Below, one piece after another: positions 16,063-48,614 of a DNA stretch of 53,542 bases. Both the position numbers and the translations under genes were made by a program. The stretch is from Planctomycetaceae bacterium. GTDB taxonomy: Bacteria; Planctomycetota; Planctomycetia; Planctomycetales; Planctomycetaceae. The stretch covers positions 1 through 53,542 of the forward strand of contig JANSXP010000054.1 in the NCBI GenBank assembly GCA_024742875.1, written 5' to 3'. The first letter of the stretch is position 1, and each line of letters starts with the position of its first letter. Below the pieces are notes generated by a model. The model saw only the letters and a program-made list of their open reading frames with translations, was not told where the DNA came from and made no database searches.

Positions 16063-16080
16063 TTATCCAAACAGGTCACA
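16063..16080 (+). repeat. Left attachment-site candidate (18-bp direct repeat)
   Basis: TTATCCAAACAGGTCACA, identical to 48570-48587. In this copy the frame L-S-K-Q-V-T ends with TAA directly after the repeat. Confidence 0.75.
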
Positions 16081-18845: not shown

Positions 18846-19054
18846 TGACCCTTGCAACAACACCGACTGCCGACCTGCACCGCGAACTTGACAAAGCAGA
18901 AGCGGCTTTTCTGAAAGCGAAACCAGCCGACAAGCAACGCGCACGAAACCGCGTGGCAAACGTCATGGCAGAGATCCAGGCACGGCATCAGGCATGCCAC
19001 GCTGGCCGGATTTACGACCAGGGGCGGCGACGCTGGGTGACGGCAACCGCGTAA
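18845..19054 (+). CDS. Small basic helical protein
   Basis: A 69-residue protein, mostly one long amphipathic helix rich in Ala, Lys and Arg (D-L-H-R-E-L-D-K-A-E-A-A-F). Coupled to the gene before it. No family recognised. Confidence 0.5.
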   Translation: MTLATTPTADLHRELDKAEAAFLKAKPADKQRARNRVANVMAEIQARHQACHAGRIYDQGRRRWVTATA

Positions 19055-19134
19055 CACCATCTTCGCCGAAGCGCACAAAAAAAGCCCCGCAGTCGTGCCA
19101 GACATACGGGGCAATAAATCGGAGTAAGGAAATT

Positions 19135-29245: not shown

Positions 29246-30982
29246 ATGTTTCGAGTCTCCATGCTTCTGGCGATGCTTCTTTGTGAACAGATTGCACAAT
29301 CGGCGGACAAATATGCCCTGCTGATTGGTGTCACCAAGTATCAGAAGGCTCAAATGAATCGCACGCCGTTGCAGTTCCCGGAAGTCGATGCGAAATCAGT
29401 GGGGGAACTGCTGCAAAAAAGCGGTTACACCGTGAAACTGCTGCTGGGCAGTCAGGCGACAGAGGCAGCTATTGAGCGGGAGCTGGCCGAATTCGAACAG
29501 CAGGGCAGCCACGATGGAGTTGTGTTCATTGGCCTGTTTGGGCACGGCGTGCAATACGGGCAGGACGCGTATTTCTGTCCGTACGACACTCGCATGAGAA
29601 AACTGAAGGACAGCAAGGGCAACACGGTTTACACCAACAGTCAGCCCACGCTGGAACCTGATCCTGCATCGATGACGTCGATGAAGCGACTGCTGGAAGC
29701 TTTGAACACGGCCGGAGCCGGTAACCGAGTGATGATGGCGGATTGCTGTCGTGAAGATCCGAGTGCTGCACGTGGTGCTTTAACCGGGCGAGCCTTCGGC
29801 AGCAACGTGAAGCTAACAGACCTTGGGCAGGGCACAGCAGCCATTTTCTCATGCTCCAACAGCGAACAGGCGTTTGAACATCGCGACTGGGGTCACGGAG
29901 CTTTCACGAAGGCGTTTCTGGACTACTGCAACCGCCTGGGAGCGAATGGCGATGCATCGGTGAACTCGATGTCGGCCCCGCTCTATCGCCGTGTCAGCTC
30001 TTTGGTAAAAGCGAAGTCTCCGAATACCAGTCAGCGAATCAATCCAATTACGAATGGCATTGTGGATCTGCAGTTGGAGTCCGGCCCACCCGCAATCCTG
30101 ACCAATCGCACGGGGATGCAGTTGAAGCTGATTCCTGAGGGTTCTTTCCTGATGGGCAGCAGCCAGTCCGCCAGGGAGTTGGCGGTGAAGTATAAAGAGT
30201 ATGGGGCAAATGAATCTTATTTAACGGACGAGCATCCTCGGCATCGTGTAACGCTGACGAAGCCGTTTTATATGGGGATTCACGAAGTCACTCGTGGGCA
30301 ATTTGCGGTGTTTGTGCGGGACCAGAATTACCAGACAGAGCCGGAACGCGACGGTGAAGGCGGATTCGGTTGGAATGAAGCCGACAGAAAATTTGAAGGT
30401 CCTGATCCGAAGTATAGCTGGCATAGCTGGCGGAACGCCGGGGTCGCTCAAACCGACGATCATCCGGTTGTGAACGTGACCTGGAACGACGCGGTGGCCT
30501 TCTGCCAGTGGCTCAGCCGGAAAGAAGGCCGGACGTATCGTTTGCCGACTGAGGCTGAATGGGAGTACGCATGCCGAGCCGAGACGACGGGGGATTTTCA
30601 CAACGGGGACGCCCCCGAATCTTTGGTGAAGGTTGGCAACATTGCAGATGCTACCGCGAGAGCGAAGTATGCCAATTGGACCACGGCGGTGTACGCTGCC
30701 GACGGGCACGTCTTCACGGCTCCCGTGGGGTGTTTTCAGGCGAACGCCTTCGGGCTTTACGACATGCATGGGAACGTTTGGGAGTGGTGCAGCGACGGTC
30801 CGCGGAAATATTCCTCGCGTTCTGTCACAAATCCGATTGGGCCAACAGGCTCCGGGTCGTCTCGCGTTTTGCGTGGGGGCTCGTGGTACTACCACGCGTA
30901 CGGCGCTCGTTCTGCGTACCGCAGCTACTACACGCCCGGCAACCGCAACCACGACCGCGGCTTTCGTGTTGTTTGTGAGTGA
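29246..30982 (+). CDS. Secreted caspase-FGE protein with DGR-type variable C-terminus (gene A)
   Basis: A 578-residue protein with a signal peptide ending about residue 19. Residues 21-270 are a caspase-like (C14) peptidase with His100 in G-L-F-G-H-G and the Cys pair 167-168 in A-D-C-C-R-E-D-P. Residues about 290-578 are an FGE/C-type-lectin fold (G-S-F-L-M-G-S, L-P-T-E-A-E-W-E-Y, G-N-V-W-E-W-C, R-V-L-R-G-G-S-W, G-F-R-V-V-C-E). No catalytic FGE Cys pair is seen near the C-terminus, so this domain probably binds rather than oxidises. The last 30 codons carry the variable region. I infer an outer-facing sensor coupled to a suicide-type protease. Confidence 0.9.
   Translation: MFRVSMLLAMLLCEQIAQSADKYALLIGVTKYQKAQMNRTPLQFPEVDAKSVGELLQKSGYTVKLLLGSQATEAAIERELAEFEQQGSHDGVVFIGLFGHGVQYGQDAYFCPYDTRMRKLKDSKGNTVYTNSQPTLEPDPASMTSMKRLLEALNTAGAGNRVMMADCCREDPSAARGALTGRAFGSNVKLTDLGQGTAAIFSCSNSEQAFEHRDWGHGAFTKAFLDYCNRLGANGDASVNSMSAPLYRRVSSLVKAKSPNTSQRINPITNGIVDLQLESGPPAILTNRTGMQLKLIPEGSFLMGSSQSARELAVKYKEYGANESYLTDEHPRHRVTLTKPFYMGIHEVTRGQFAVFVRDQNYQTEPERDGEGGFGWNEADRKFEGPDPKYSWHSWRNAGVAQTDDHPVVNVTWNDAVAFCQWLSRKEGRTYRLPTEAEWEYACRAETTGDFHNGDAPESLVKVGNIADATARAKYANWTTAVYAADGHVFTAPVGCFQANAFGLYDMHGNVWEWCSDGPRKYSSRSVTNPIGPTGSGSSRVLRGGSWYYHAYGARSAYRSYYTPGNRNHDRGFRVVCE
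30887..30958 (+). repeat. Variable region (VR) of gene A
   Basis: 24 codons between invariant G-G-S-W and G-F-R-V. All 14 aligned variable codons end in C. Fixed codons GCG, GCT CGT TCT, CGC and CGC mark the shared frame. Confidence 0.8.
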
Positions 30983-31069
30983 GTTCTTGCCCAGTCACCA
31001 TACGGTTCGACCGCTGTGCCTTTTCTACTCTGAACTCTGACACTCTGTCCTCTGCCTTCTCTCAACTAA

Positions 31070-31086
31070 GCATGACGCAGTCATGC
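31070..31086 (+). repeat. Perfect 7-bp palindrome downstream of VR A
   Basis: GCATGACGCAGTCATGC, stem 7 bp and loop GCA, 88 bp after the stop of gene A. The same palindrome with conserved flanks follows gene E. DGR targets often carry such hairpins after the variable region. Confidence 0.7.
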
Positions 31087-31120
31087 GTTCGAGTTTGAAA
31101 TCTACGTTTCGCTGTTTTCC

Positions 31121-31153
31121 GTAGGCCGGGCCGAGCGAAGCGAACCCCGGCGG
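31121..31153 (+). repeat. Left flank of an inverted repeat around the RT remnant
   Basis: The sequence beginning GTAGGCCGGGC recurs as an inverted, slightly diverged copy at 31701-31734. The RT remnant ends two bases beyond it. Confidence 0.6.
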
Positions 31154-31154
31154 A

Positions 31155-31637
31155 TCAAGAGATTGGTCGTTGAATCGTCTGCAGCAGAATCTGGTGATCG
31201 ATGTTGGGAAAGAACTTCACAATGTCTGTCTGCAGACACCACGGAAAGCGTCGCTGATAGTGCTGAGCACGCCGGATGGCTCGATGTGTGCCTTTCCCGA
31301 CTCGGCATGCGTAACTATCAAAGATGAATCTGGCTTCGAACAGCGGTTCCAGGACGTTCACCAGAGCGTGATGAACAACCCGGTCGAAACGGAGCGGCAC
31401 TGATTTTTCGAGGCTTGGGATCAGTGATGTGAAAGTGGTAATAGCTGCCGTGTCGATACGTTCCATGCTGTAACTGCTGCTGCAGGCGGAACAGGTTTTT
31501 TGTTCCCACTGAAAATCGAATTTCGTGGCTGGTTGCCGATAGCGTTTGCGACGTTGACAGCGTTGATAAGCGGTCAGCAGATTGTCCCATGACGCCACCT
31601 GCGGCCTCAGATTTCGAAATGTACGAGGCATTTGCAA
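31155..31637 (-). pseudogene. DGR-type reverse transcriptase remnant
   Basis: The frame covers the N-terminal third of a DGR-class RT: W-D-N-L-L-T-A-Y-Q-R, then after a gap D-R-V-V-H-H-A-L-V-N-V-L-E-P-L-F-E, D-S-Y-A-C-R-V-G-K-G-T-H-R-A and D-I-V-K-F-F-P-N-I-D-H. The piece between (L-F-R-L-Q-Q-Q-L-Q-H-G-T-Y-R-H-G, K-P-R-K-I-S-A-A-P-F) lies in another frame, entered at an A-run (about 31495-31501 on the plus strand) and left by a second indel near 31385. It stops after about 160 residues, before the YxDD catalytic motif and thumb. It cannot encode an active enzyme. Confidence 0.85.
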
Positions 31638-31700
31638 TTGCTTCCAAGTAGACGGTGGCTTTTCGCGGGCGTCGATGAGTGATGCCCCTTTGCAAAAGCT

Positions 31701-31734
31701 GCTGCCGAAGTTCGCTTTGCTCAGCCCGGCCTAC
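31701..31734 (-). repeat. Right flank of the inverted repeat around the RT remnant
   Basis: Reverse-complement copy of 31121-31153, reading GTAGGCCGGGCTGAGC on the minus strand. The two copies bracket the RT remnant. Confidence 0.6.
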
Positions 31735-31758
31735 CGAGGGGCTGGAACGACCGGAAGA

Positions 31759-31799
31759 ACAGACCGGGACGTTCGATGACTCAACCAGTCCCGGTCTGT
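31759..31799 (-). repeat. 12-bp hairpin between VR B and the RT remnant
   Basis: ACAGACCGGGAC and GTCCCGGTCTGT form a perfect 12-bp stem with a 17-nt loop, 131 bp after the stop of gene B. It has no T tract, so it is not an obvious terminator. Confidence 0.65.
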
Positions 31800-31930
31800 C
31801 ACCGCGGCTTTGGCCTGAGAGATCACTCAAGCCACGAGACAGACCGTGTCACCCTCTTGTCACGGGCCGACCGTGCGTATGACCTTAAGCCGGGGCAGAA
31901 TCGACATCGGGATGGAAAGATGATTGGAAC

Positions 31931-33568
31931 TCACTCACAAACAACTCGAAATCCGATGTTGTGGCTACGGAGGCCGGGCGAGAGGTCGAAGCGGCGCGCA
32001 GAACGAGCGTCGTCCGCGTTGTTGAGCTCCGAGCCCCCACGCAAAACGCGCCACGACCCGGTGTCTGTCGGACCAGCCGGATCTGTGACAGAACGCGAGG
32101 AATATTCCCGCGGACCGTCGCTGCACCACTCCCAAACGTTGCCCGATGTATCGTACAGCCCCCACCGATTGGCGTCATACGAGCCCACTGAACTCGCGAC
32201 TTCCCGAAAGCGGCCTTTCGTTTCCGTGCCATAGGGATAATTCCCGTCGACATTCGCTCGATCACCGTTCAGCGTGTCACCCCACCAGAAAGGCGTCGTG
32301 CTGCCGGCACGAGCCATGTATTCCCATTCCGCCTCTGTCGGCAACCGATACGTGAAACGCGAATCCTGAAGGCTCAGCCACTCACAAAACGCCACCGCTC
32401 CGTGCCACGATATGCTCTGCATCGGCTGGTTGTCGCTGCTGGCAAACTTCGATGAAGAATTCCGCACCCAGCGACTGCCTGACTTGCGAACGGGACTGTT
32501 TTCACCACCATCTTTGATCCATTGGCTTTCGATCCGGACCCCTGGAGCATTCAACCACTGCAGAACCTGACCAATCGTCACCTCATACTTCCCCGCATAA
32601 AACGGCTTGCTGATCGTCACACGATGCACAGGACCTTCGTCGTCGACACGTCCTTCTTCACTCTCCGGACTGCCCATCAAAAAACTGCCAGCCGGAATCT
32701 TCACGAATCCAATGCCGGCGGCGTTGGGCACGAGGTTGGTGACCGGTGTCAGGCCAAGGTCGACGATTCCATTGGTAATCGGATTGACCGTCTGCCGATC
32801 GGCTCCGTTTGTTTTATCTCGTACGGCTTTCAACACATCCCGATGCAGTGAGACCGAAAGTTCATTTGCTGTTAAGTCAGCTGACGCATCCCTCATCCGT
32901 TGCAGCAATGAATATGTGAACGCTCCATGGCCCCAGTCTTTGTGTTCAAACGCCTTTTCGCTAGCACTGCACGCAAACAAGGCCGCCATTCCCGGCGGCA
33001 GATCGGCAACGGACAGCTTGCTGCCAAACGCTCGGCCGCGGGCCGCACTGGGGTCTTCGCGACAACAATCCGCCAGCAGCACACGGTTGGTTGCACCACA
33101 GGCCGACAGAGCATCCAGAATCGAACGCATGGACGTCATGCTGTCTGGATCTGGCTCCAATTTTGCACTGCCATCAGTATGTCGCAGTCTGTTGCCCTGT
33201 GAGTCCGTGACAAACCGAATGCCCGTGTCATACGGAGCGAAGTACGCGTCGTTGCCATACTGAACTCCATGGCCAAACAATCCCACCAGGCAAACTCCAC
33301 CATTGCTGCCCTGAGTCGCCAGCTTGTCCAGCTCCTTCTGGATCGCAGTCCGTGAGGCTTCTCGCCCCAACAGTGTGGTGACGGTGTACCCGCATCTCTG
33401 CAGTTCTTCACCAACAGACTTCGCATCCGCCTCCGGATACTGCAGTTGAGTATCGTTCATCCGGCTGTGGCTGTATGTCGTGATACCGACCAGCAAAGCG
33501 TGTTTGTCCTGAGCGGAAACGCCACACGAACTGACAAGCAGACTGAGTAGAACAAGTAGGTGTTTCAT
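31931..33568 (-). CDS. Secreted caspase-FGE protein with DGR-type variable C-terminus (gene B)
   Basis: A 545-residue paralogue of gene A, nearly identical to gene D over most of its length. Signal peptide to about residue 19 (V-S-A-Q), caspase domain with His100 and Cys168-169 (A-D-C-C-R-E-D-P), then an FGE-fold domain from about 275. The last codons form a variable region. Its VR differs from those of A, D and E by also replacing the otherwise fixed Trp after G-G-S with Glu. It lies directly upstream, in the reading direction, of the RT remnant (293-bp gap), the canonical target-then-RT order of DGRs. Confidence 0.9.
   Translation of the reverse strand: MKHLLVLLSLLVSSCGVSAQDKHALLVGITTYSHSRMNDTQLQYPEADAKSVGEELQRCGYTVTTLLGREASRTAIQKELDKLATQGSNGGVCLVGLFGHGVQYGNDAYFAPYDTGIRFVTDSQGNRLRHTDGSAKLEPDPDSMTSMRSILDALSACGATNRVLLADCCREDPSAARGRAFGSKLSVADLPPGMAALFACSASEKAFEHKDWGHGAFTYSLLQRMRDASADLTANELSVSLHRDVLKAVRDKTNGADRQTVNPITNGIVDLGLTPVTNLVPNAAGIGFVKIPAGSFLMGSPESEEGRVDDEGPVHRVTISKPFYAGKYEVTIGQVLQWLNAPGVRIESQWIKDGGENSPVRKSGSRWVRNSSSKFASSDNQPMQSISWHGAVAFCEWLSLQDSRFTYRLPTEAEWEYMARAGSTTPFWWGDTLNGDRANVDGNYPYGTETKGRFREVASSVGSYDANRWGLYDTSGNVWEWCSDGPREYSSRSVTDPAGPTDTGSWRVLRGGSELNNADDARSARRFDLSPGLRSHNIGFRVVCE
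31955..32026 (-). repeat. Variable region of gene B
   Basis: 24 codons; all 14 aligned variable codons end in C. Fixed GCG, GCT CGT TCT GCG and CGC codons are shared with A and E. Confidence 0.8.
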
Positions 33569-33851
33569 TAATAGTCACAATGCATAGAGTTTTGCTGACT
33601 AGGTCTGACTTATAAACGACTGAGATCGTGTGTTCTTCCCGAGATTTCCGATCAGTATCGGGAGACCAAGATGTAGACATTCACACCTGAACGTTTGCCT
33701 AGGTCAGGTCAGGCTGCTCGCCTCGTACGCATCCCAGGTTTCCCATCGTCGCGACTCTACTTGGAGCATCGGCTTCGAAATCCCTCGGCTCCGTTTCGCT
33801 TTTGTAGTACTCCATCATTCCATAAATCGAATTAGGGTGACGGTGTAAGCT

Positions 33852-35540
33852 CTAGTCGCAGACAACTCTGAAGCCAATCCATGGTCTTCGATTAGTCAAG
33901 TAACGACCCGTAGCGGCGGATCTTGCGTGAACCGCGCCCTGACTCCAAGATGCTCCCCGGTGGACGCCTGATTCCACGAAGTTCAGCTGTGCGCTATACT
34001 TTCCCCCTCCCAGTGAGTTGCCACCCCCTATTTTCATATAGGTATTTGAACACCATTCCGAGACATTTCCTGATGTGTCAAACAGACCAAAGCCATTCGG
34101 ACTGAAAGAACCAACTTCTATTGTCTTTCCTCGATATCGCCCACTTTCTTTAGTTCCGTAGGGTTCACTACCGTCAATATTCGCCCGATCGCCATTCAGT
34201 TTTTTGCCCCACCAAAACGGAGACGTCGTACCCGCACGTGCCATGTACTCCCATTCTGCTTCCGTAGGTAGCCTATAGGCGAACCGTGGGTCTTGTTGAC
34301 TAAGCCATTTGCAGAAGGCAACTGCTCCTTTTTGAGAGATTCCGTACATTGGATGATTCATGCTACTTGCAAACCGATCAGAGGAATTGACCAACCAATT
34401 TGTTCCCTTGCTTCGAACGGGACTGTTTTCACCACCATCTTTGATCCATTGGCTTTCGATCCGGACCCCTGGAGCATTCAACCACTGCAGAACCTGACCA
34501 ACGGTCACCTCATACTTCCCCGCATGAAACGGCTTGCTGATCGTCACGCGATGCTGCGGACCTTCGTCGCTATTGCGTCCCTCTTCATTTTCTGGACTGC
34601 CCATCATAAAACTGCCCGCCGGAATATTCACGAATTCAATGCCGGCGGCGTTGGGGAGCCGTTCCGTGGACTGGAGCTTTAGTTCTGCCACGCCTTTTTC
34701 CAGAGGCACCACCGTCTGCACGTCCAGACCGTTACTGCGATCGGCGACGAGTTGTTTCACATTACGCCTCAGCCGGGCCCCGAACGAACCGACGTTGTCG
34801 AATTCTGAATTTGCAATCGAGGGCAGCAGATCCAGGAAGCAACGCGTCAACGCACCATGGCCCCAATCAGGATGCTCGTATGCCTGCTCCAAAGCCTGAC
34901 ATGCAAAAATGGCGGCTGTGTTGTCGGGGAGATCCGCTGTCGTCACGTTGCTGCCGAAAGCTCGGCCTTTGGGTCGGTTCGGACTGTTTCGACAACAATC
35001 TGCAAACAGAACGCGACTGCCAGCACCGGATAGTTTCAGGCCGAGCAAAATCGCTTCCATACCGACCAGCGATTCCGGGTTGGGCTCGATCATCGGCTGC
35101 CCGTCTTTGAACAGGACCTCTCCGTTCGAAGCTTTGACGGCTCGTAGCTTGGTGTCATACGGGCAGAACATGGCCTCTTTCGACCCTTCGAACTCGACAC
35201 CATGCCCCCACAGTCCAACAAACACGGCACCGTCCTGGTTCACGTGATTCGCCAGATCCTGCAGTTCCTGTTGAATCGATTTTCGATTGGCCTCGGAACC
35301 CAGCAGATACTTTACCGTGTACCCATGCTCCGACAGAAACGTGCCAACAGCCTTCGCATCCGCTTCTGGAAACTGCAATTGAGGCTTATTCATTTCGCTG
35401 TTGCTGTACTTCGTCACAGCGATCAGCAACGCATAGCGTTTCGCAAGTCCGGGTTCGTCAGCGTTGGAAGCGCTGAATGCAACGGCCAATGCGAGCAACA
35501 GACTGAAGTAATTCAGTGCGATACGTATGAGAGGTTTCAT
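33852..35540 (-). CDS. Secreted caspase-FGE protein without DGR footprint (gene C)
   Basis: A 562-residue protein from ATG 35540 (signal-peptide fit; ten more codons upstream are open). Caspase domain with His113 in G-L-W-G-H-G and Cys182-183 in A-D-C-C-R-N-S-P-N-R, the second subtype found in this locus. The FGE domain resembles B and D up to about residue 500. The C-terminus (H-R-G-A-S-W to G-F-R-V-V-C-D) keeps the fold, but its codons show no NNC bias and the surrounding DNA is more AT-rich. It is therefore a conventional or no longer mutagenised member. It sits between the near-identical genes B and D. Confidence 0.88.
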   Translation of the reverse strand: MKPLIRIALNYFSLLLALAVAFSASNADEPGLAKRYALLIAVTKYSNSEMNKPQLQFPEADAKAVGTFLSEHGYTVKYLLGSEANRKSIQQELQDLANHVNQDGAVFVGLWGHGVEFEGSKEAMFCPYDTKLRAVKASNGEVLFKDGQPMIEPNPESLVGMEAILLGLKLSGAGSRVLFADCCRNSPNRPKGRAFGSNVTTADLPDNTAAIFACQALEQAYEHPDWGHGALTRCFLDLLPSIANSEFDNVGSFGARLRRNVKQLVADRSNGLDVQTVVPLEKGVAELKLQSTERLPNAAGIEFVNIPAGSFMMGSPENEEGRNSDEGPQHRVTISKPFHAGKYEVTVGQVLQWLNAPGVRIESQWIKDGGENSPVRSKGTNWLVNSSDRFASSMNHPMYGISQKGAVAFCKWLSQQDPRFAYRLPTEAEWEYMARAGTTSPFWWGKKLNGDRANIDGSEPYGTKESGRYRGKTIEVGSFSPNGFGLFDTSGNVSEWCSNTYMKIGGGNSLGGGKYSAQLNFVESGVHRGASWSQGAVHARSAATGRYLTNRRPWIGFRVVCD

Positions 35541-35589
35541 GGAATGCTCTTTCACTGGAGAATGTTTCATTCGGGGCGTAGCACTTTTT

Positions 35590-35703
35590 CGCCACTGGAT
35601 TCATCCCAGTGGATTGAGGTTTCTGCACTACCGGACGTCGCAACCGCAGCTGAACGCTACGTAGTGCAAGACCGGTTCCCATCGAGTTAAACTCGGTGGC
35701 GGA
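35590..35703 (+). repeat. Structured repeat, copy 1
   Basis: About 114 bp aligning with 44796-44909 in the same orientation. It contains an inverted repeat CCACTGG/CCAGTGG, a second inverted repeat around CTGCACTAC/GTAGTGCA, and a third near CGAGTT/AACTCG. It lies between genes C and D. Confidence 0.65.
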
Positions 35704-35785
35704 GGAGGGGCAAGAGAAGGCAGAGGACGAGAGATTCAGAGGGCAGAGTCGCAGCGGCCGAATCGCAGGGTGACTGGGGAAGAAC

Positions 35786-37417
35786 TCACTCACAAATAAC
35801 GCGAAACCCGTAGCAGTTGAAACGTTCGTTGAGCGCGCCACTGAAGCGGCACGAAGAACGAGCTTCGTTCGCGCCGAAGTCCCACGAGCCCCCACGCAAA
35901 ACGCGAGACGGCGCAGAGCCTGTCGGACCAAGCGGATCTGTGACCGCACGCGAGGAATATTCTCGTTCACCGTCGCTGCACCATTCCCAAACGTTGCCGG
36001 CTGTATCGTACAGCCCCCACTGATTGGCGTCATACGAGCCCACCGGAGTCGTGACGTCCCGAAAGCGGCCTTTCGTTTCCGTGCCATAGGGATAATTCCC
36101 GTTGACATTTGCTCGATCACCGTCCAGCGTGTCACCCCACCAAAACGGCGTGGTGCTGCCGGCACGAGCCATGTATTCCCATTCCGCCTCTGTCGGCAAC
36201 CGATACGTGAAACGTGAATCCTGACGGCTCAGCCACTCACAAAACGCCACCGCTCCGTGCCACGAAATGCACTGCATCGGCTGGTTGTCGCTGCTGGCAA
36301 ACTTCGATGAAGAATTCCGCACCCAGCGACCGCGTGACTTACGAACAGGACTGTAGTCGCCGCCATCGATCACCCAATCGTCATCAATCTGCACACCTGG
36401 AGCGTTCAGCCACTGCAACACCTGAGCAATCGTCACTTCATACTTCCCCGCATAAAACGGCTTGCTGATCGTCACACGATGCACTGGACCTTCGTTGACT
36501 ATTTGTTCACCTGCCGGGCTGCCCATCAAAAAACTGCCCGCCGGAATCTTCACAAAAACTATGCCGGCGGCGTTGGGCACGAGCTTGGTGATCGGTGTCA
36601 GGCCGAGGTTGACGATTCCATTGGTAATCGGATTGACCGTCTGCCGATCGGCTCCGTTTGTTTTATCTCGTACGGCTTTCAAAACATCCCGATGCAGTGA
36701 AACCGACAGTTCATTTGCTGTTAAGTCGGTTGACGCACCCCTCAGCCGTTTCAGCAATGAATATGTGAACGCTCCATGGCCCCAATCTTTGTGCTCAAAC
36801 GCTTTTTCGCTCGCACTGCACGCAAACAAGGCCGCCATTCCAGGTGGCAGATCGGCAACAGACAGCTTGCTGCCGAACGCTCGGCCGCGGGCCGCACTGG
36901 GGTCTTCGCGACAGCAATCCGCCAGCAATACACGATTGGTTGCACCACAGGCCGACAAAGCGTCCAAAATCGAACGCATGGACGTCATGCTGTCCGGATC
37001 TGGTTCCAGTTTTGCACTACCATCTGCATTTCGCAGTCTGTTGCCCTGTGAGTCCGTGACAAACCGAATGCCCGTGTCATACGGAGCAAAGTACGCGTCG
37101 TTGCCGTACTGAACTCCATGGCCAAACAATCCCACCAAACAAACTCCACCAATACTGCCCTGAGTCGCCAGCTTGTCCAGCTCTTTTTGGATCGCAGTCT
37201 GTGAGGCTTCTCGCCCCAACAGTGTGGTGATGGTGTACCCGCGTCTTTGCAGTTCTTCACCAACAGATTTGGCATCCGCCTCCGGAAATTGCAACTGTGT
37301 GTCGTTCATCCGACTGTGACTGTACTTGGTAACGCCGATCAGCAGCGCGTGTTTGTCCTGAGCGGAAACACCAGTGGCCGTGAAAAAGAAGATCAAAAAC
37401 GTGAATGTGTGCTTCAC
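35786..37417 (-). CDS. Secreted caspase-FGE protein with DGR-type variable C-terminus (gene D)
   Basis: A 543-residue near-duplicate of gene B. The start is GTG at 37417, giving a signal peptide ending V-S-A-Q about residue 20. Caspase His100 and Cys168-169 in the C-R-E-D-P subtype; FGE domain from about 275. The caspase half differs from gene B at only scattered bases, whereas the last 24 codons are almost wholly different. D and B bracket gene C, indicating tandem duplication or recombination. Confidence 0.9.
   Translation of the reverse strand: MKHTFTFLIFFFTATGVSAQDKHALLIGVTKYSHSRMNDTQLQFPEADAKSVGEELQRRGYTITTLLGREASQTAIQKELDKLATQGSIGGVCLVGLFGHGVQYGNDAYFAPYDTGIRFVTDSQGNRLRNADGSAKLEPDPDSMTSMRSILDALSACGATNRVLLADCCREDPSAARGRAFGSKLSVADLPPGMAALFACSASEKAFEHKDWGHGAFTYSLLKRLRGASTDLTANELSVSLHRDVLKAVRDKTNGADRQTVNPITNGIVNLGLTPITKLVPNAAGIVFVKIPAGSFLMGSPAGEQIVNEGPVHRVTISKPFYAGKYEVTIAQVLQWLNAPGVQIDDDWVIDGGDYSPVRKSRGRWVRNSSSKFASSDNQPMQCISWHGAVAFCEWLSRQDSRFTYRLPTEAEWEYMARAGSTTPFWWGDTLDGDRANVNGNYPYGTETKGRFRDVTTPVGSYDANQWGLYDTAGNVWEWCSDGEREYSSRAVTDPLGPTGSAPSRVLRGGSWDFGANEARSSCRFSGALNERFNCYGFRVICE
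35810..35881 (-). repeat. Variable region of gene D
   Basis: 24 codons; 11 of 14 aligned variable codons end in C. The three exceptions (GAA twice, AGT) may be later point changes. Framed by G-G-S-W and G-F-R-V. Confidence 0.75.
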
Positions 37418-37940
37418 TTAGGTTTACTCCGCTATCAGAGACGTTGAGTCAGGTTCAAGCAACCGACGGCCATTGCGATCATACAACTCTTTGCCCTAGG
37501 AATCTCTTAAGGCACTGACTTCGGTATCCTACGGGCGGAATTAGGCGTTATGGAAGAACTCAACACTTTGGCCAAGCAATCCAAGTATGTGTTTCATGTT
37601 AAATCCAATGTAGCAACGACGCGCAGAAGCTAGTCGATAACGAATACGACCACGTATTCTTCCCACGTTATCCTTGAAAACATGCATCAATGTAGAATGA
37701 AGATTCAGAAAAGTACCTGAACGTCTGAGGACGGTTTACCGACGCATTTGGTTTGCAAAACTGCGGCCAGGGGACTGAATGAACCAAGATGCGAAAACGA
37801 ATGCCGTTGCGTCGCTGGTCCACAAATCGCAGCCATCCCCCCCAACTTACTGGCAAATCTGAAATCAGGTGGGAAGAATGGACACGTCAGCACGTTACCC
37901 GTGTACTGACCTGTTCCGAACCTTTAATTGCGAGTACCTC
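37418..37940 (+). other. Divergent intergenic region
   Basis: 523 bp between the starts of gene D (minus) and the haem protein (plus). It presumably holds the promoters of both. I see no gene and no repeat that I trust here. Confidence 0.5.
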
Positions 37941-39725
37941 ATGAAGACTTCGCTCTTCGTCTCAGCGGCATTCCTACTCCTTCTTCCCTGTCAAGCCGAC
38001 GAAGAAACCGCAACGGGCAATGATGATCTGGCCAAAGAAGCCGGGCTGATTCTGCGGCGAAATTGTGCTCGATGCCACAAAGGGAAAGGTTCGGAATCGG
38101 GCTATGCCTTCAACGTGATGGATATCGAATCGCTCACCGAAGAAGGCATGGTTGTGGCCGAAGACCACGAGAACTCCAGCGTCTGGGAAGCCATGTATTC
38201 CGGCCGCATGCCGCCGCGCAATCGGCCTCAACTGCCCAAACCGTCGCCAGAGGACGTGGACAAAATCAAGGAATGGATTCAGGCGGGCGCACCACCCATT
38301 CCTCCTGCCGTTCGTCGGCCACGGGCGACTCTGAAGGACCAGTTGCTGGCGATGAGGTCTCATCTGCAGTCACTGCGTCGAGAAGATCGGCGGAACATTC
38401 GCTACTTTACGATGAGCCACCTTCACAACGACCTGACCATCGACGATGAGCAGTTGAAGACAACGCGACTGGCACTTTCCAAAGCCGTCAACAGTCTTTC
38501 CTGGGAAGCCTTGCTGGTGAAACCCAAAGCGGTTGATGAAAAGCAGGTGGTGTACGCGGTCGATATCGACAAACTGGGGTGGGGGCGAGAACACTGGCTC
38601 ACGCTGACTCAGGCGTATCCTTACGCTCTGTCGTATGGGGCCGTCGACGACGACGAACTGGACGAAATCGATGAGGACATTCAGGATCTGCGAGGTTCTG
38701 ACCGAACGCCGGTTGCCGTGCGAGCTGACTGGCTGGTGGCTGTGGCGACAAAGCCACCGCTGTACTACTCGTTGCTCTACGACCTGAAGCTGCCGGACCT
38801 GGTGGCGCGGCGTGCCGACAATCGTGACCCTGCCAATCCGAAACGCATGACGGACCTCGACTTGGAAATATACCTGGGAGTCGACGCTGCGGCCAACATT
38901 CGTCTTGGAAAAGTGGTTCGATGCGGTTTCACAGAATCCGGAGTGTCCGGTCAGAATCGTCTGATCGAGCGACACAACATGAAGTCGGGCGGATTCTACT
39001 GGAAGAGCTACGACTTCCTGTCAGCCAACCGTCGAGCCATCCTTTCAGAATTTCCACTGGGACCGGAAACTCCGAACAACGAATTCAACGACCTGGCATT
39101 TGAACATGACGGCGGCGAGATCATTTTCAACCTTCCCAACGGAATGCAGGGTTATCTTCTGATCGACGGCAAAGGCAATCGCATCGATGCTGGCCCGATT
39201 GAAGTGGTGGCCGATTCTCTGCGGACATCAGGTAACGAACAGATCTTCGCCGGAGTGTCCTGCATCGCTTGTCACCGCAATGGAATGATAGAAGCTCCCA
39301 ACGACGAGGTACGCAAGTTCTCTGGTGCGGTGGCGGATGCTCGTGATCAGGTTCGCCGACTTTATCCGGAAGACGATGAATTTCGCGAATGGGTTTCCAG
39401 AGACACTCAATTGTTTCAACGAGCACTTGTGGAGGCCACAAGCCCGTTCGTTGGAGAAGACGACATCACCGATCTGCCGGAGCCCGTTGGCGAAGTGGCA
39501 CGTCGATACCACCTGGAATCCATGACACTGGAAACGGTGGCCGCCGAGTTATTCGTGGCTCCCAAACGTTTGCGAGCCGCCATTGATACAGATCCACGTC
39601 TGAAATCAATGGGCCTGCGAATTCTGCTGCGTGATGGCGGCGGCATCAAACGCGGTGCCTGGGAATCTGGAGCCACATCCATGTTTCAGTTGGTCGCCCG
39701 CCAGTTTGGCTTTGACCCAAAATAG
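37941..39725 (+). CDS. Secreted protein with two c-type haem motifs
   Basis: A 594-residue exported protein (signal peptide ending at about Q-A-D). The first haem-binding motif C42-A-R-C45-H46 lies in a cytochrome-c-like segment with M-P-P-R as possible axial-Met region; the second is C441-I-A-C444-H445. The 300 residues between have no motif I recognise. Planctomycetes have many large haem-motif proteins of this type. It follows the caspase-FGE genes and precedes another secreted protein in the same direction. Within a conflict locus it could act as an outer-membrane or periplasmic redox partner, but that is only inference. Confidence 0.8.
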   Translation: MKTSLFVSAAFLLLLPCQADEETATGNDDLAKEAGLILRRNCARCHKGKGSESGYAFNVMDIESLTEEGMVVAEDHENSSVWEAMYSGRMPPRNRPQLPKPSPEDVDKIKEWIQAGAPPIPPAVRRPRATLKDQLLAMRSHLQSLRREDRRNIRYFTMSHLHNDLTIDDEQLKTTRLALSKAVNSLSWEALLVKPKAVDEKQVVYAVDIDKLGWGREHWLTLTQAYPYALSYGAVDDDELDEIDEDIQDLRGSDRTPVAVRADWLVAVATKPPLYYSLLYDLKLPDLVARRADNRDPANPKRMTDLDLEIYLGVDAAANIRLGKVVRCGFTESGVSGQNRLIERHNMKSGGFYWKSYDFLSANRRAILSEFPLGPETPNNEFNDLAFEHDGGEIIFNLPNGMQGYLLIDGKGNRIDAGPIEVVADSLRTSGNEQIFAGVSCIACHRNGMIEAPNDEVRKFSGAVADARDQVRRLYPEDDEFREWVSRDTQLFQRALVEATSPFVGEDDITDLPEPVGEVARRYHLESMTLETVAAELFVAPKRLRAAIDTDPRLKSMGLRILLRDGGGIKRGAWESGATSMFQLVARQFGFDPK

Positions 39726-39856
39726 GACTCTTTCCGTTAACCACATAGCATTGCGGTCTCCGCCGTGACTCAACGACTCTCAGCTGAGACGTTGAGCAAC
39801 GATTTCAGCCCAGCGGTATTGAAAACTCACATACGACATCTGATTGAAGAATGATC

Positions 39857-40996
39857 ATGAAACACCTCCTCCCCCTACTTGTTCTGGCGAGTTCTATTCC
39901 GTCCATGGCCGCTGACACCCGCCGGATCGAGATGACGTTTGAGGGGCAGTTGGATTCTGCCGTCGGCGAACTGAAAGAAAAGATCAAAGACGATCCGGAC
40001 CTCAACGGTCGAGTGCTTCGACTGGGAAAGTTCAGTGGCCCGAATCTTCCCGACAGCACCTTCGACGCTGCCTTTGAAGAAAAGCTCAGGGAACTCATGG
40101 GGAGTACGCTGGGAGAACAATCTGAGTTCGTCGTGAGTGGCGTTTATGACCAGATCGAAGGGACTCTTGCTGAAAACGATGGTCTGGACGTTATTCAGTT
40201 CACGATCGAAATCCGTCACAAACGACGCAAGCTGCTGTCGGTCACGCGTGAAATTAACAACTCCGCCGACATCGCTCGCATTAACGGCGGCACAGTTGCT
40301 TTGCCGGAAAAACGTCCGGGCGAAAAGACAGACGAACACCTGCAACGTCGCAACAAAGCAGCGACAGCAACTGCCAGCGTGGATGGATCCACCGGTCAAG
40401 ATTTCGACATCAAAGATGGCACCCGCGTGACAGCCAAAGGAGCCCCCGATTATGCGGTAGAAATCCTGACCGTCAAGAACGGTGGAACGCCAAAGCCGGT
40501 CACGCCGCGTGCCGTAAATGGCCGAGCGTTCGTCGACATCGCTGTCGGCGAGAAGATTATCGTGAAGGCTTACAACTACGATTCAAAGTTCGCCGCCATC
40601 GCGAAGATCGCCATCGACGGGTTGGATGTCGTGAATACCTTCTCAGAAGACTCTCAGAAGTACGGCGGCTATGTCGTACCCAAAGGCACCAGTTCCGGTC
40701 CCGGCGTCCATGCCGTCCCTGGTTGGCTAATTACAACCAGACGCAGCACCGATAACGTGTACGAGTTCGTCGTGAATAAACTGGGAGAAGGTGCGGCCAC
40801 AGAAATGAAAAGCCGTCATCGGCTGGGCGTCATGCATGTCGAATTTTACGTTGCCGTGCCGGAAAATGGTTCGCTCCCACGTGGTCACGGCGAGATCGGT
40901 CGCGGAAAAACCATGGACGTCGGTTACGAAGTCAAGCCGCTCAAGTTTCGGGACAGCCCGGTGGCCAATATCAGTATTCGATACAGCAATCGTTAG
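39857..40996 (+). CDS. Exported protein of unknown family
   Basis: A 379-residue protein with a signal peptide (L-L-P-L-L-V-L-A-S-S-I-P-S-M-A-A). The first half has strand-rich segments with acidic/basic patches; the second half looks beta-sandwich-like. I do not recognise a family. It lies 131 bp after the haem-motif gene and 75 bp before the FGE-less caspase, all in one direction, so the three are probably one operon. Confidence 0.6.
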   Translation: MKHLLPLLVLASSIPSMAADTRRIEMTFEGQLDSAVGELKEKIKDDPDLNGRVLRLGKFSGPNLPDSTFDAAFEEKLRELMGSTLGEQSEFVVSGVYDQIEGTLAENDGLDVIQFTIEIRHKRRKLLSVTREINNSADIARINGGTVALPEKRPGEKTDEHLQRRNKAATATASVDGSTGQDFDIKDGTRVTAKGAPDYAVEILTVKNGGTPKPVTPRAVNGRAFVDIAVGEKIIVKAYNYDSKFAAIAKIAIDGLDVVNTFSEDSQKYGGYVVPKGTSSGPGVHAVPGWLITTRRSTDNVYEFVVNKLGEGAATEMKSRHRLGVMHVEFYVAVPENGSLPRGHGEIGRGKTMDVGYEVKPLKFRDSPVANISIRYSNR

Positions 40997-41071
40997 TTGT
41001 CACCGCAGAATTGATCGAACGAGCGGATAAGTCACCGGTCGAAGCCCCATCGAGGAAAGGAATTGGATGAT

Positions 41072-42919
41072 ATGTACGCCAAACTTTTTGATGTCAGGCA
41101 ATTGGTTGTTTTGATTCTGGGGATCTTCCCATTTTCATTACAAGCTGTTGCTGAACCGGAGAAACACGCGCTGCTTATCGGAGTGACGACATATCAGCAC
41201 GGTCGAATGAACGAAACCCAATTGCAATACCCCGAGGCAGATGCATTGGCTGTTGGGGAACTGCTTAAGGGCTCGGGGTATCAAGTCGTCACGCTGTTGG
41301 GACCGAAAGCGACGCGCGATGCGATTTCTACGGAATTGCAGAAGCTCTCTAAGCAGGGAACTCAGGATGGGGCAGTAATCGTCGGGCTATTTGGGCACGG
41401 TGTGCAATACGGCGAAGACGCTTACTTCGGTCCGTTCAACACCGGTATTCGAACGGTGAAAGATTCGAACGGAGATACTCTTCGCGACAGAAACGGCCGA
41501 CTGTTGCTGGAACCCGATCCTGCGACAATGACTTCTATGCGGTCGATCCTTGATGCATTGACGAAATGCGGAGCAGGCAACCGACTACTGTTGGCGGACT
41601 GCTGCCGAGAAGATCCTAACGCCGCACGCGGTCGAGCGTTTGGCAGCAACTTGAAGATATCCGACCTTCCCACACGCACTGCCGCCATGTTTGCCTGTAG
41701 TGCAAACGAACGGGCTTTTGAGCACTCCGACTGGGGCCATGGGGCTTTCACCCATGCCTTCCTGAAACGCTGCAGGAACGGCGGCAAACTCACAGCAAAC
41801 GCACTCTCCGCTCAGTTACATGATGATGTCCTGGAGCAGGTTCGTGAGGTAACTCATCAACAGGAAACTCAGACGGTCCATTCGCTATTGAACGGCGTCG
41901 TCAACCTGCAATTGAATACGACTGCCAGTCAAGTCTCTTTGTATCCTCGTGGACAACAGCTTTCTGACGGCGAAGCCAGGCGGCGACGTCAAAAGGCTCG
42001 TTCAGAAATCGGTCAACTTGGATCAGCTGAAGACACGGCGTATATCAGAGGAAAAATTGACGGACCACAGGCATTGTCGTTCAAGCTCGATGACTGGAAC
42101 AAAGACAGAATCCCGTTCTTGCGCGAACTTGCTGCACTGGACCCGATACGGGACAAGGCACTTCTCGAACGCCAATCGAAGATTTTCTTGCAGGCTCTCG
42201 CCGGACTGGATTCCTCGACGCGAGATTCCTATTCATATTTGGGCGATCATGAGTACGGAGTTGGGGCCCCGGACGCCTTTACCGCTATCGCCAGATGGCG
42301 TGGAGAGACGTACTATGCTGTGACCACACAGATTCGACCGGTGCTTGCACTGACAACTCAGGAACAGCGAGATCGCTTTATTAAACCTGAACTGAAACAA
42401 GATCCGAGCGATAAAGCTATCCTTTGTTCTATTCGGGGAGACTACGAAGGGGCTATTCAGAATCTGAAGGATGCTGGAGGCAGCCATTTGCCTTACTGCG
42501 TTATTGCACCAACACTGCTGGGCAACGTTGATAGCGCGTTGTCACTGGCTCAGGCCATGGGTCTCAGGTACGGAGAGCATGAAGGCTTGCTTCTTATCTG
42601 CGACACCCTGCTTGACGAAGGGCGTGCCGAAGAAGCCGCAGCGATTTACGCAGACGTGGATAAATCCAAGCCGATTGGGGTTCTGGTTGGTCTAATCCCT
42701 GTCCCGCTGAATTGCCTGAATTCAGGCGGGACCTCTATTGACTCATTTGAACTGGTCGCGCAGATCGCTGGGCGGCTGGATGACGAATCCGCCTATCGGC
42801 AGGTGAAACAAGCGAGTGACGCACTGGCGGAAGAGCAGAACTGGTCGGAGCAATCAAAGAACGCGCAAAAGATACGACTCCGACGAGTCTTCATCCAGGG
42901 GTTGGTTCGAGACCTGTAA
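41072..42919 (+). CDS. Secreted caspase with helical-repeat C-terminus, no FGE (gene F)
   Basis: About 615 residues. Signal peptide, then a caspase domain of the C-R-E-D-P subtype with His109 and Cys177-178. Instead of FGE, the C-terminal 330 residues are helical and TPR-like (L-A-A-L-D-P-I-R-D-K-A-L-L-E; G-D-Y-E-G-A-I-Q-N-L-K-D-A; A-E-E-A-A-A-I-Y-A-D-V-D). ATG 41072 is preferred, with GAGGAAAGG about 11 bp upstream; TTG 41063 is the alternative. It may be a common effector or adaptor for the FGE-bearing paralogues. Confidence 0.85.
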   Translation: MYAKLFDVRQLVVLILGIFPFSLQAVAEPEKHALLIGVTTYQHGRMNETQLQYPEADALAVGELLKGSGYQVVTLLGPKATRDAISTELQKLSKQGTQDGAVIVGLFGHGVQYGEDAYFGPFNTGIRTVKDSNGDTLRDRNGRLLLEPDPATMTSMRSILDALTKCGAGNRLLLADCCREDPNAARGRAFGSNLKISDLPTRTAAMFACSANERAFEHSDWGHGAFTHAFLKRCRNGGKLTANALSAQLHDDVLEQVREVTHQQETQTVHSLLNGVVNLQLNTTASQVSLYPRGQQLSDGEARRRRQKARSEIGQLGSAEDTAYIRGKIDGPQALSFKLDDWNKDRIPFLRELAALDPIRDKALLERQSKIFLQALAGLDSSTRDSYSYLGDHEYGVGAPDAFTAIARWRGETYYAVTTQIRPVLALTTQEQRDRFIKPELKQDPSDKAILCSIRGDYEGAIQNLKDAGGSHLPYCVIAPTLLGNVDSALSLAQAMGLRYGEHEGLLLICDTLLDEGRAEEAAAIYADVDKSKPIGVLVGLIPVPLNCLNSGGTSIDSFELVAQIAGRLDDESAYRQVKQASDALAEEQNWSEQSKNAQKIRLRRVFIQGLVRDL

Positions 42920-42992
42920 ACTGCGTAGACAACCAACCCGTTAGAAGACTCATGAGATCAGGCCACGAAGTTCCGATGAGAAAGCCAGCAAT

Positions 42993-44651
42993 ATGATGAA
43001 CGTTCCTCGCCACGCCTTCAGCCTTCTGGTGACATGTCTGGCGATGTCATCGGCAATGGCTCAGGAATCGGATCGTTATGCCTTGCTAATTGGCGTAACA
43101 AAGTATCGTCACGCGGAGATGAATAAACCGCTCTTGGCATACCCCGAAATTGATGCTGCCGATCTGGGCAAGTTTCTGGAAGCTCACGGTTACGAGGTCG
43201 AATACCTGCTGGGACCGAAGGCTACCAAGCAGGCGATTGAAGCCAAGCTGGACGGCCTCGGGGCGAAAGGCAGAGACGGTGGCGTCTGCCTTATCGGCTT
43301 ATGGGGGCATGGCGTGGAACTTGACGGTTCGGACGAAGCCATGTTCTGTCCGTATGACGCGTCCATTCGACGGGCAGTAGATTCTGCGGGGAACAAGATC
43401 TTTGACCGCAACGGCAATCCACTTGTTGAACCCAACCCCAATAGTCTGGTGGGCATGAGTTCCGTATTGGGCGGACTTCGCATTGCAGGTGCCAGCAATC
43501 GATTGCTCATCGCGGATTGTTGCCGTATCAGCCCGAATCGTCCTCGCGGTCGAGCCTTCGGCAGTAAAGTGAAACTGAGTGACCTGCCGGACAACACGGC
43601 CGCAATTTTCGCGTGCGAGCAGGGCGAACAGGCTTTCGAAGACAAACGCTGGGGCCACGGAGCGATGACAAAGGCGTTGCTAGATTTGCTACCGGGATTG
43701 GTCAGTCGAAGAGACACGTCTGTTACATCACTGCTAAGTCCTTTGAAACGCGATGTGGCGGACCTTGTCCGGGACGCCAGCAAAGGGCGAGACTCCCAGA
43801 CGATCCATCCCATCTTCAAAGGGCTGCCAGATCTCAAACTAGTGAAAAGTGGAGGATCACTGGACTTACAGCCACGACCGGAAATGCAGACGCGACCAAC
43901 AGACTCTGCTGACTCATCGATGCAAGATTTCATCAACAATAAGATCGGTATGAAACTCAAGCTGATACCTGCGGGCACTTTCCGGATGGGCAGTCCTAAG
44001 AGCGAAGAGCTCCGCGACGACGACGAAGGTCCTCAGCATCGTGTGACGATCAGTAAGCCGTTTTATATGGGCATCCATGAAGTGACTCAGTCTCAATGGG
44101 AATCGGTGATGAGGACAACGCCGTGGAGGGGCTCCCGCTCCGTGAAAGAAGGCGACCACGTTGCGGTGACATACGTGAGTTGGGAGGATGCCGTGGAATT
44201 CTGCAGGCGTTTGAGTGTTCGTGAGGGGCGGACATACCGTCTGCCGACGGAAGCGGAATGGGAATATGCGTGCCGTGCCTGGTCGACGACAGTCTTTCAC
44301 TTCGGTGATTCGGATACCAAGCTCAGCGACTACGCGTGGTGGGGCGGAATTGCTGGTAACGGCAACGCACAGGACGAGCAGTACGCCCACGAGGTTGGGC
44401 TAAAGCGCCCGAACGCCTTCGGGCTTTACGACATGCATGGGAACGTTTGGGAGTGGTGCAGCGACGGTAAACGAGAATATACCATGCGTTCTGTTACAGA
44501 TCCGATTGGTCCATCAGGCTCCGTGTCGTCTCGCGTTTTGCGCGGGGGCTCGTGGAGCTACGCCGCGTACTACGCTCGTTCTGCGGACCGCCTCAGCAAC
44601 GCGAGCGACGTCCGTATTAGTTACGTCGGTTTTCGTGTTGTTTGTGAGTGA
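42993..44651 (+). CDS. Secreted caspase-FGE protein with DGR-type variable C-terminus (gene E)
   Basis: A 552-residue protein: signal peptide (A-M-S-S-A-M-A-Q), caspase of the C-R-I-S-P-N-R subtype with His106 and Cys176-177, then an FGE domain from about 305. It combines the caspase type of gene C with a variable C-terminus like that of A, suggesting shuffling of the effector and sensor halves. The end of the gene and about 80 bp downstream are closely similar to gene A, including the G-T-rich codons after the VR and the palindrome. Confidence 0.9.
   Translation: MMNVPRHAFSLLVTCLAMSSAMAQESDRYALLIGVTKYRHAEMNKPLLAYPEIDAADLGKFLEAHGYEVEYLLGPKATKQAIEAKLDGLGAKGRDGGVCLIGLWGHGVELDGSDEAMFCPYDASIRRAVDSAGNKIFDRNGNPLVEPNPNSLVGMSSVLGGLRIAGASNRLLIADCCRISPNRPRGRAFGSKVKLSDLPDNTAAIFACEQGEQAFEDKRWGHGAMTKALLDLLPGLVSRRDTSVTSLLSPLKRDVADLVRDASKGRDSQTIHPIFKGLPDLKLVKSGGSLDLQPRPEMQTRPTDSADSSMQDFINNKIGMKLKLIPAGTFRMGSPKSEELRDDDEGPQHRVTISKPFYMGIHEVTQSQWESVMRTTPWRGSRSVKEGDHVAVTYVSWEDAVEFCRRLSVREGRTYRLPTEAEWEYACRAWSTTVFHFGDSDTKLSDYAWWGGIAGNGNAQDEQYAHEVGLKRPNAFGLYDMHGNVWEWCSDGKREYTMRSVTDPIGPSGSVSSRVLRGGSWSYAAYYARSADRLSNASDVRISYVGFRVVCE
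44556..44627 (+). repeat. Variable region of gene E
   Basis: 24 codons; 12 of 14 aligned variable codons end in C. Flanking invariant DNA is almost identical to gene A. Confidence 0.8.
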
Positions 44652-47247: not shown

Positions 47248-47424
47248 ATGAGCGAACCCAAACACGCGAATAGCGGCGATCGAATCGCGATCTGGTGCGG
47301 TCTTGCGATCGTCTTCGGCTGCCTGGTCCAGCTTGCGGCGATGGGCTGTCAGGCGACGCCACAGGAGCCACAGCCGCAAGTTGTCGAACCACCACCAATA
47401 CTACCTGCAGGAGAATCGAACTGA
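47248..47424 (+). CDS. Small lipoprotein-like peptide
   Basis: A 58-residue protein with a hydrophobic core (I-W-C-G-L-A-I-V-F-G-C-L-V-Q-L-A-A-M-G-C) ending in Cys and a Pro/Gln tail. Its stop overlaps the integrase ATG (TGATG), so it is translationally coupled to int. Confidence 0.5.
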   Translation: MSEPKHANSGDRIAIWCGLAIVFGCLVQLAAMGCQATPQEPQPQVVEPPPILPAGESN

Positions 47425-48614
47425 TGGACGCAATAAAGGTTACATTGCACAAACGCGGCGATCGAAAGAACTGGGACTGCCGCTGGGTTGATCCGAAGAC
47501 GGGGCGTGTCCGGTGGAAGTCTACCGGAACTGCAACGAAGCGGACGGCAGAGAAGACGGCGGCCGCGCTGGAGGCGTCTTTGAATCACGGCGCGTTCATC
47601 CCTGGTCGGCGCATGCCTTGGACTGAAGCGATCCAGTTGTTCCGCGAAGATCCAACCGTGGACTTGTCGCGGGTGTACGTTCGGCGGGACTTCGAGCGCT
47701 CAATTAACGCGATCAACGACACGAAGCGGCCCGGCACGCTGCAGGAGATAGACACCGATTTTATCGCCGCACTGATACCCGAACTGCAGAAGCGGCCGGG
47801 GACGAATGGCAATCTGGTCAGCGATGTTACGGTTGCGGGATATCTGCGAGTGCTGAAGCGGGTTCTTACTTGGGCTGTCAAGAAAGGGAGTCTGCCAGAG
47901 GTTCCCGACTTCCCACCGTTTCGGGCAGAGGCTGCCGCGAAAGGGAAGGCACTCACAGAAACCGAGTTTCAGCGTATGCTGGCCGCAGCGCCGGAAACCT
48001 ACCCGATGGCTGGCCGGAAATATCAACAGGTTTTGTGGGCGCTGTGGTGGTCTGGGCTGCGGATCGGTGAACTGCGGGAACTGCGCTGGGCTGACGACAT
48101 GAAACACATTTCAGTTGACACGTCACAGGGTTATCCGCGTTTCTGGATTCCGAAGAACGCCGACAAGGCGAAAAAGAAGCGTGCCAGATCCGCACCGATG
48201 GCGCCGGAGTTCTGGGAGTTCCTGTCGCAAAACTTCGCGCCAGAGGATCAGGAAGGCGGCGGGCGCGTCTTTCCGTCCCTCTGCAACAAAGAAGACCTGA
48301 GCCGCAACGTGTCACAGATCGGGCGGACTGCCGGGATCCAGGTCAGCGACCGGGGCAAGTTTGCAAGCGCTCACGACCTGCGGCGATCGTTCTGCGTTCG
48401 GTGGGCAAAGCGGGTGCCACCCAAGCAACTGAAAGATCTGGCCCGGCATGCGAACATCGAAACTACGCTGACCTATTACGCCGATCAGGATGAATTCGAG
48501 ACCAGCGCTTTGATCTGGCAAAAGTCGCCGGTTAGCGTGGCGAAATACGGCTTCGCCGAGGCGTTGAAATTATCCAAACAGGTCACAAATGGTCAGTCAT
48601 TGATCGGTGGGTAG
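47424..48614 (+). CDS. int: Tyrosine recombinase (integrase)
   Basis: A 396-residue phage-type integrase. The catalytic domain (about 180-385) has Arg213 in S-G-L-R-I-G-E-L, H317-D-L-R-R and the nucleophile Tyr351 or 352 in T-L-T-Y-Y. The N-terminal part is an arm-binding/core-binding region (K-R-G-D-R-K-N-W-D-C-R-W-V-D). Start 47424 overlaps the upstream stop. The last codons include the right 18-bp repeat, so the tail N-G-Q-S-L-I-G-G is probably supplied by flanking DNA. Confidence 0.92.
   Translation: MDAIKVTLHKRGDRKNWDCRWVDPKTGRVRWKSTGTATKRTAEKTAAALEASLNHGAFIPGRRMPWTEAIQLFREDPTVDLSRVYVRRDFERSINAINDTKRPGTLQEIDTDFIAALIPELQKRPGTNGNLVSDVTVAGYLRVLKRVLTWAVKKGSLPEVPDFPPFRAEAAAKGKALTETEFQRMLAAAPETYPMAGRKYQQVLWALWWSGLRIGELRELRWADDMKHISVDTSQGYPRFWIPKNADKAKKKRARSAPMAPEFWEFLSQNFAPEDQEGGGRVFPSLCNKEDLSRNVSQIGRTAGIQVSDRGKFASAHDLRRSFCVRWAKRVPPKQLKDLARHANIETTLTYYADQDEFETSALIWQKSPVSVAKYGFAEALKLSKQVTNGQSLIGG
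48570..48587 (+). repeat. Right attachment-site candidate (18-bp direct repeat)
   Basis: TTATCCAAACAGGTCACA inside the integrase 3' end, identical to 16063-16080. Confidence 0.75.

Follow-up and report, generated by a model that had tools for sequence, protein, structure and literature searches.

What diversified the ends of four caspase genes in a planctomycete genome, and is it still doing so? The genes lie on a contig of a Planctomycetaceae bacterium (JANSXP010000054.1; genome of 8.18 Mb in 168 contigs, 98.1% complete) that was analysed as a whole, positions 1–53542, and is called the window here. It holds six caspase genes, A to F, and an initial annotation of the sequence had assigned the hypervariable ends of A, B, D and E to a diversity-generating retroelement (DGR). 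We consider it very probable that these ends are the variable regions (VRs) of a single DGR that has since decayed and lost its template, so that the variants are frozen, on gene bodies that are under purifying selection. In such a history, the error-prone reverse transcriptase (RT) of the DGR would have copied an AAC-rich template, mutating its A's, and the mutated copies would have replaced the 3′ ends of four caspase-FGE paralogues, the majority of which had diverged deeply by then. Afterwards, the RT would have decayed and the template been lost, leaving four frozen versions to drift slowly.

Codon pattern of the variable ends and the search for a template

The caspase genes and their variable stretches, with the basis of each assignment, are as follows (aa, amino acids):

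29246..30982, plus strand: gene A, caspase (Peptidase_C14) and FGE/C-type-lectin, 578 aa, probably exported (Pfam; N-terminus and motif heuristic)
30887..30958, plus strand: VR of gene A, 24 codons between GGSW and GFR (codon comparison)
31931..33568, minus strand: gene B, caspase-FGE, 545 aa (Pfam; motif heuristic)
31955..32026, minus strand: VR of gene B (codon comparison)
33852..35570, minus strand: gene C, caspase-FGE paralogue without the VR signature, internal control (Pfam; codon comparison)
35786..37417, minus strand: gene D, caspase-FGE, 543 aa, GTG start in the list of open reading frames (Pfam; motif heuristic)
35810..35881, minus strand: VR of gene D (codon comparison)
41063..42919, plus strand: gene F, caspase domain without FGE, 618 aa, probably exported (Pfam; motif heuristic)
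42993..44651, plus strand: gene E, caspase-FGE, 552 aa (Pfam; motif heuristic; PDB sequence search)
44556..44627, plus strand: VR of gene E (codon comparison)

A hand recount of the codon listing reproduced the 51 of 56 C-ending codons that had been reported over 14 variable columns. When every amino-acid-variable column of the 24 codons is included (18 columns), C is the last base of 59 of 72 codons, as compared to 69 of 228 in the adjacent upstream FGE sequence (Fisher p = 9e-15). The framing codons described as fixed (GCG, GCT CGT TCT, CGC and CGY) are so with two exceptions: D has TCG for a later GCG, and B has GAG instead of the TGG that precedes the stretch. Differences at codon positions 1/2/3 number 12/8/1 for A and B, 14/12/4 for A and D, 13/11/3 for A and E, 15/11/3 for B and D, 15/9/2 for B and E, and 11/10/5 for D and E. 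In the upstream FGE domain, the same pairs except B–D differ at 52–61 third positions per 101–104 codons, and B and D are 90% identical as proteins there, as opposed to 29% in the variable stretch. Synonymous divergence (dS) of the gene bodies is about 2.2–2.7, that is, saturated, in five of the six pairs (0.31 for B–D), and 0.06–0.26 in all six pairs of VRs. The ratio of non-synonymous to synonymous divergence (dN/dS, Nei–Gojobori) is 0.19–0.28 for the bodies of A, B, D and E against 2.2–8.4 for their VRs, and we read the bodies as being under purifying selection.

Is this pattern peculiar to the four genes? Gene C differs from them at 17–18 of 23 third positions. Among 24 FGE loci of this genome, 11 distinct tails fitted the motif search, namely A, B, D, E and seven others including C. 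Aligned without gaps and right-justified, the 49 pairs involving at least one of these seven show a third-position difference of at least 0.54 (median 0.75), compared with 0.04–0.21 among A, B, D and E. The codon-position contrast in the four genes is thereby confirmed as real and well beyond chance; it is not seen in C or in the six other FGE tails.

Where, then, is the template? None was found in the window, nor in the assembly, where two patterns with up to 3 mismatches matched only the four VRs and where gaps remain possible. The initial annotation had proposed this genome-wide search and had held that the lack of any sequence with A at the varying positions would count against it; within the assembly, this lack is what we find. 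The DGR reading is nevertheless rescued, because the template of a same-family genome (G021) puts A at the varying sites. One contig of that genome (C1004, locus L059) carries an HRDC gene, a DGR-type RT and the template together, and another (C400, L216) carries a caspase-FGE gene, 41% identical to gene D and the nearest full-length caspase-FGE that 39 genomes yielded, in which changes affect 22 of 31 template A's and 2 of the 89 non-A bases. Aligned with the window through the protein frame, a register set by ourselves, the template carries A at 25 of the 72 positions. Each of these 25 is variable in the set of A, B, D and E, as compared to 14 of 47 non-A positions (p ~1e-9), and 18 shifted registers (1–9 nucleotides either way) give p of at least 0.04. 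As the template was taken from a genome other than the one tested, the test avoids circularity. Judged by the relative's template rather than by one of their own, the 3′ ends are repeats changed at template A sites, and this, together with the codon-position contrast, supports the claim that A, B, D and E end in DGR variable regions.

A search for the VR pattern in 98 genomes matched only this genome and one other (G051), and none of seven same-genus genomes. The G051 match is the end of an FGE gene fragment (L058, 1–1197) that fits with 2 mismatches; we rejected it as a further VR, as it is a single gene in a genome without an RT-profile match at an E-value of 1e-20 and proves nothing. A full-length relative in Schlesneria (L065) has an end without the codon pattern (one gene, judged by eye). 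DGRs are known to have a hairpin, and a small inverted repeat downstream of some of the stop codons is a candidate for one, and only a candidate.

The reverse-transcriptase remnant and the state of the system

Between genes A and B lies a piece that the initial annotation did not mention:

31155..31637, minus strand: DGR-type RT remnant, N-terminal part only, with apparent frame changes and without the catalytic half (RT comparisons)

The 191-aa open piece has as its best match among solved structures the RT 8ub7, which we take to be that of the Bordetella phage DGR (66 bits, residues 36–189; the best group II intron RT scores 44 bits), and it reaches 125 bits with a profile built from four RTs of DGR-like loci, two planctomycete and two cyanobacterial. 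The RTs of five relatives match it in one frame, and these matches end near 31155. In the case of locus L199, the RT additionally matches, in a second frame, a middle part that includes the DPK...ISAAP segment of the RT alignment. A search of the window for the second half of the enzyme gave weak matches only (E-values of 0.8–0.9), and this half was not found. On account of the truncation, the absent second half and the apparent frame changes, we regard the piece as a DGR RT that is dead; of these signs, the truncation is surer than the frame changes. At 31121 and 31734, the piece is flanked by REP-like repeats of opposite orientation. HRDC proteins accompany the RT in two other loci (L068 and L034); used as queries, they gave a best match in the window at an E-value of 0.08, and the accessory protein Avd was not searched for.

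Is there another DGR-type RT in this genome? Used as a query at an E-value of 0.001, the fragment found only itself, with nine of nine candidates scored, and another RT search, with four of four candidates scored, gave no other DGR-type RT either. The further RTs of the genome, two of them retron-like (L001 on C59, L002 on C91) and one UG37-like (L003 on C152), were rejected as the missing enzyme on the ground of these affiliations.

For comparison, we surveyed RTs in 392 genomes of the host's phylum. Matches at an E-value of 1e-20 were present in 108 of them, many probably group II introns, and the surroundings of the 40 matches with the highest scores were compared, several of which are shortened by contig ends. 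A template/VR pair lay within the retrieved stretch in 33 of these 40 loci. Where two VRs could be set against each other, 9 of 11 pairs show 0 or 1 difference at 47–80 non-A sites; the outliers are L180 (9 of 46) and L199 (26 of 37, taken to be a single VR interrupted by an indel); the pair of L181, which ran past the end, was left out. With third positions differing at 1–5 of 24, the VRs of the window are more decayed than those of most intact loci, the two measures not being identical. A working DGR here is not supported, the RT being truncated and apparently frameshifted and no template having been found. Nor is the number of targets unusual, as had been suggested: more than one VR was counted in 271 of 948 non-redundant DGRs (PMC6642488), and in another genome of the same family (G057, locus L208) four FGE reading frames surround one DGR RT, with three VRs on one template and 0 differences at 74–76 non-A sites.

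Several points weigh against a decayed DGR. The A rule was tested with the template of a relative only, and two codons in it are AGG, where the window's own template must have differed. The 14 varying non-A positions exceed what most intact loci show. The apparent frame changes of the RT depend on the match to a single relative (L199) and could be assembly errors, on which the truncation does not depend. The four-RT profile search, which reported no second match in this genome at an E-value of 1e-20, scored just 5 of 16 first-look candidates, and a genome in 168 contigs leaves room for a template or RT that was not assembled.

This room is where a still active DGR would have to reside, its full RT and template being hidden in a gap of the assembly or carried by a replicon that was not assembled, and acting in trans, with the RT remnant of the window as a leftover copy. 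Such separation has parallels in G021, where a caspase-FGE target and the template are on different contigs, and in Thiohalocapsa, for which trans activity on remote targets was proposed (PMC10907252). At 98.1% completeness, however, neither another DGR-type RT nor a template turned up, and the third-position differences of the window are at odds with the near identity of most intact VR pairs; we therefore regard ongoing activity as unlikely. That no DGR took part at all, and that ordinary positive selection on binding-site codons along with gene conversion among the paralogues shaped the ends, is very improbable and already close to refuted: while conversion could explain why the codons directly before GGSW are homogenised too in the four genes (A and B use another codon at 2 of 22 conserved residues there, versus 21 of 51 further upstream), it would not keep third positions alike while most variable codons differ at their first two, the 49 control pairs show nothing alike, the relative's template predicts the variable bases in register only, and a DGR-type RT remnant sits between the genes.

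The decayed DGR thus preferred presents a retroelement after its death, with four hypermutated receptor ends that are still readable as one family from the template of a relative alone. This fits an idea put forward for cyanobacteria (PMC7517822), according to which the components needed for diversification may be discarded after selection of a good variant.

Caspase-FGE proteins and related systems

What would the diversified proteins do? Peptidase_C14 (PF00656) and FGE-sulfatase (PF03781) domains are present in all five of A, B, C, D and E, and Peptidase_C14 alone in F. GHG and DCC motifs, which we take to hold the catalytic His and Cys of a caspase, are kept in A to F. In line with a caspase fold, a predicted model of gene D matches MALT1 and caspases in Foldseek searches. 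The model has a mean pLDDT of 67 and is good in the caspase part only and poor over most of the FGE part, although its matches still include the FGE-like PvdO, and we did not use it to place the variable residues. The FGE/C-type-lectin fold expected of a DGR target is indicated by PF03781 in the five genes and by gene E, whose FGE part has as its best sequence match among solved structures a Treponema denticola variable protein (PDB 2y3c). The C-terminal GGSW...GFR stretch of 2y3c, a protein that presumably has no caspase domain, aligns with the VR stretch. When gene E was searched against proteins, the ten best among the 80 loci listed were all planctomycete records. Hydrophobic, signal-like N-termini occur in six of six caspase proteins (by a simple heuristic, with an internal Met chosen for C and F), and A to F are accordingly predicted to be exported.

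Taken together, the most likely working of the caspase-FGE proteins would be that of an exported sensor-protease, as far as domains and motifs can tell. The FGE/C-type-lectin tip may bind a ligand outside the cytoplasm, and this binding may control the caspase domain, perhaps against phages or rivals. The fusion of caspase and sensor makes for a testable protein, a protease with a binding tip that differs among four copies in one cell. More tentatively, and with somewhat less than even confidence, we propose that a mobile element carries exported caspase receptors whose tips were hypermutated and became fixed when the mutator was lost, and which would now form an inherited, horizontally transferable set under purifying selection.

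Caspase-FGE targets of DGRs and DGRs with several targets are already known; here, they are found in a decayed state. The initial annotation had pointed to caspase-fused variable proteins in bacteria, and these do occur elsewhere. In a Pfam scan, Peptidase_C14 was found in 3 of 20 chosen FGE proteins beside RTs, namely both targets of L191 and the target of L199; the remaining ones have NACHT or STAND ATPase, kinase or other domains. Locus L191 (genome G431) has the architecture and the codon signature of the window in two paralogues that are 43% identical, with VR differences of 8/6/0 at codon positions 1/2/3. Unlike the window, it has the template and RT adjoining, and none of the 24 third positions differs between its VRs. 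In Nostoc (L109), a caspase-FGE gene has a template/VR pair. A 3.9-kb Planctomycetaceae contig (L068) carries a caspase-FGE gene, HRDC and an RT, and no template/VR pair was found on it, the contig ending just past the RT. At L186, a caspase-GYF protein is a separate neighbour.

Published systems come close. Orthocaspase-C-type-lectin proteins, including remote targets, are described as variable proteins of cyanobacterial DGRs (PMC7517822). As in the window, a caspase-type N-terminus is joined to a C-terminal C-type-lectin domain bearing the VR, and a paralogue with remnant template–VR homology lies far from any RT, which we count as a further likeness. In contrast, the cyanobacterial proteins are mostly predicted to be cytosolic, with some secreted, whereas A to F all have signal-like N-termini, and in the window a broken RT lies beside four VRs within an integrase-bearing element. 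A second parallel is provided by putative antigen sensors diversified by DGRs in Thiohalocapsa and other multicellular bacteria (PMC10907252), which share with the window FGE/C-type-lectin domains diversified by a DGR, incomplete loci, several targets and, in one target, a caspase-like domain (CHAT). The partners described there are STAND NTPases or MoxR-type proteins, whereas in the window C14 is fused directly to the sensor; and diversification in nature is described there at all but one incomplete locus, while neither a working RT nor a template was found here. Beyond these systems, metacaspase-FGE proteins made up 33 of 671 sequences in one study (PMC3501461), and FGE-type (FGS) domains have been tied to DGRs in conflict systems (PMC7159879), while the word caspase is absent from the main text of a further survey (PMC8144416). 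In the literature searched, no caspase-FGE array with four targets and a dead RT was reported; reports may exist elsewhere.

The probable mobile-element setting

The ends of the putative element are marked by the following features:

16063..16080, strand not assigned: left copy of an 18-bp direct repeat, candidate attachment site (repeat search)
18994..21453, plus strand: 819-aa AAA_25 protein, close to the left end (domain search)
47295..48614, plus strand: tyrosine integrase, right end (Phage_integrase domain)
48570..48587, strand not assigned: right copy of the 18-bp direct repeat, candidate attachment site, within the 3′ end of the integrase gene

Given the Phage_integrase domain and the exact 18-bp repeat, which starts at 16063 and 48570 and brackets ~32.5 kb, the four-gene region likely lies inside an integrase-bearing mobile element, in agreement with the initial annotation. 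Integrase and flanking direct repeat are both as expected of an integrative element. Beyond the 18 bp, the flanks of the two copies show no similarity, and no tRNA genes were found in the window. An empty integration site was not established in a search with the right-flank gene only; this gene, for an oxidoreductase, is multi-copy in relatives, and the best copy among the matches listed is 51% identical.

Amid the caspase genes, 37869–39725 encodes a c-type cytochrome protein (Cytochrom_C and PSCyt1, a signal-like N-terminus and, by eye, two CxxCH motifs), followed at 39851–40996 by a 381-aa protein with a signal-like N-terminus, no Pfam match and no match among the loci listed. GC content is 0.53–0.56 across the caspase region (28000–44000) and 0.57–0.61 in the first 24 kb. 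At the end of the contig, 53164–53506, repeats follow one another with a spacing of 114 bp.

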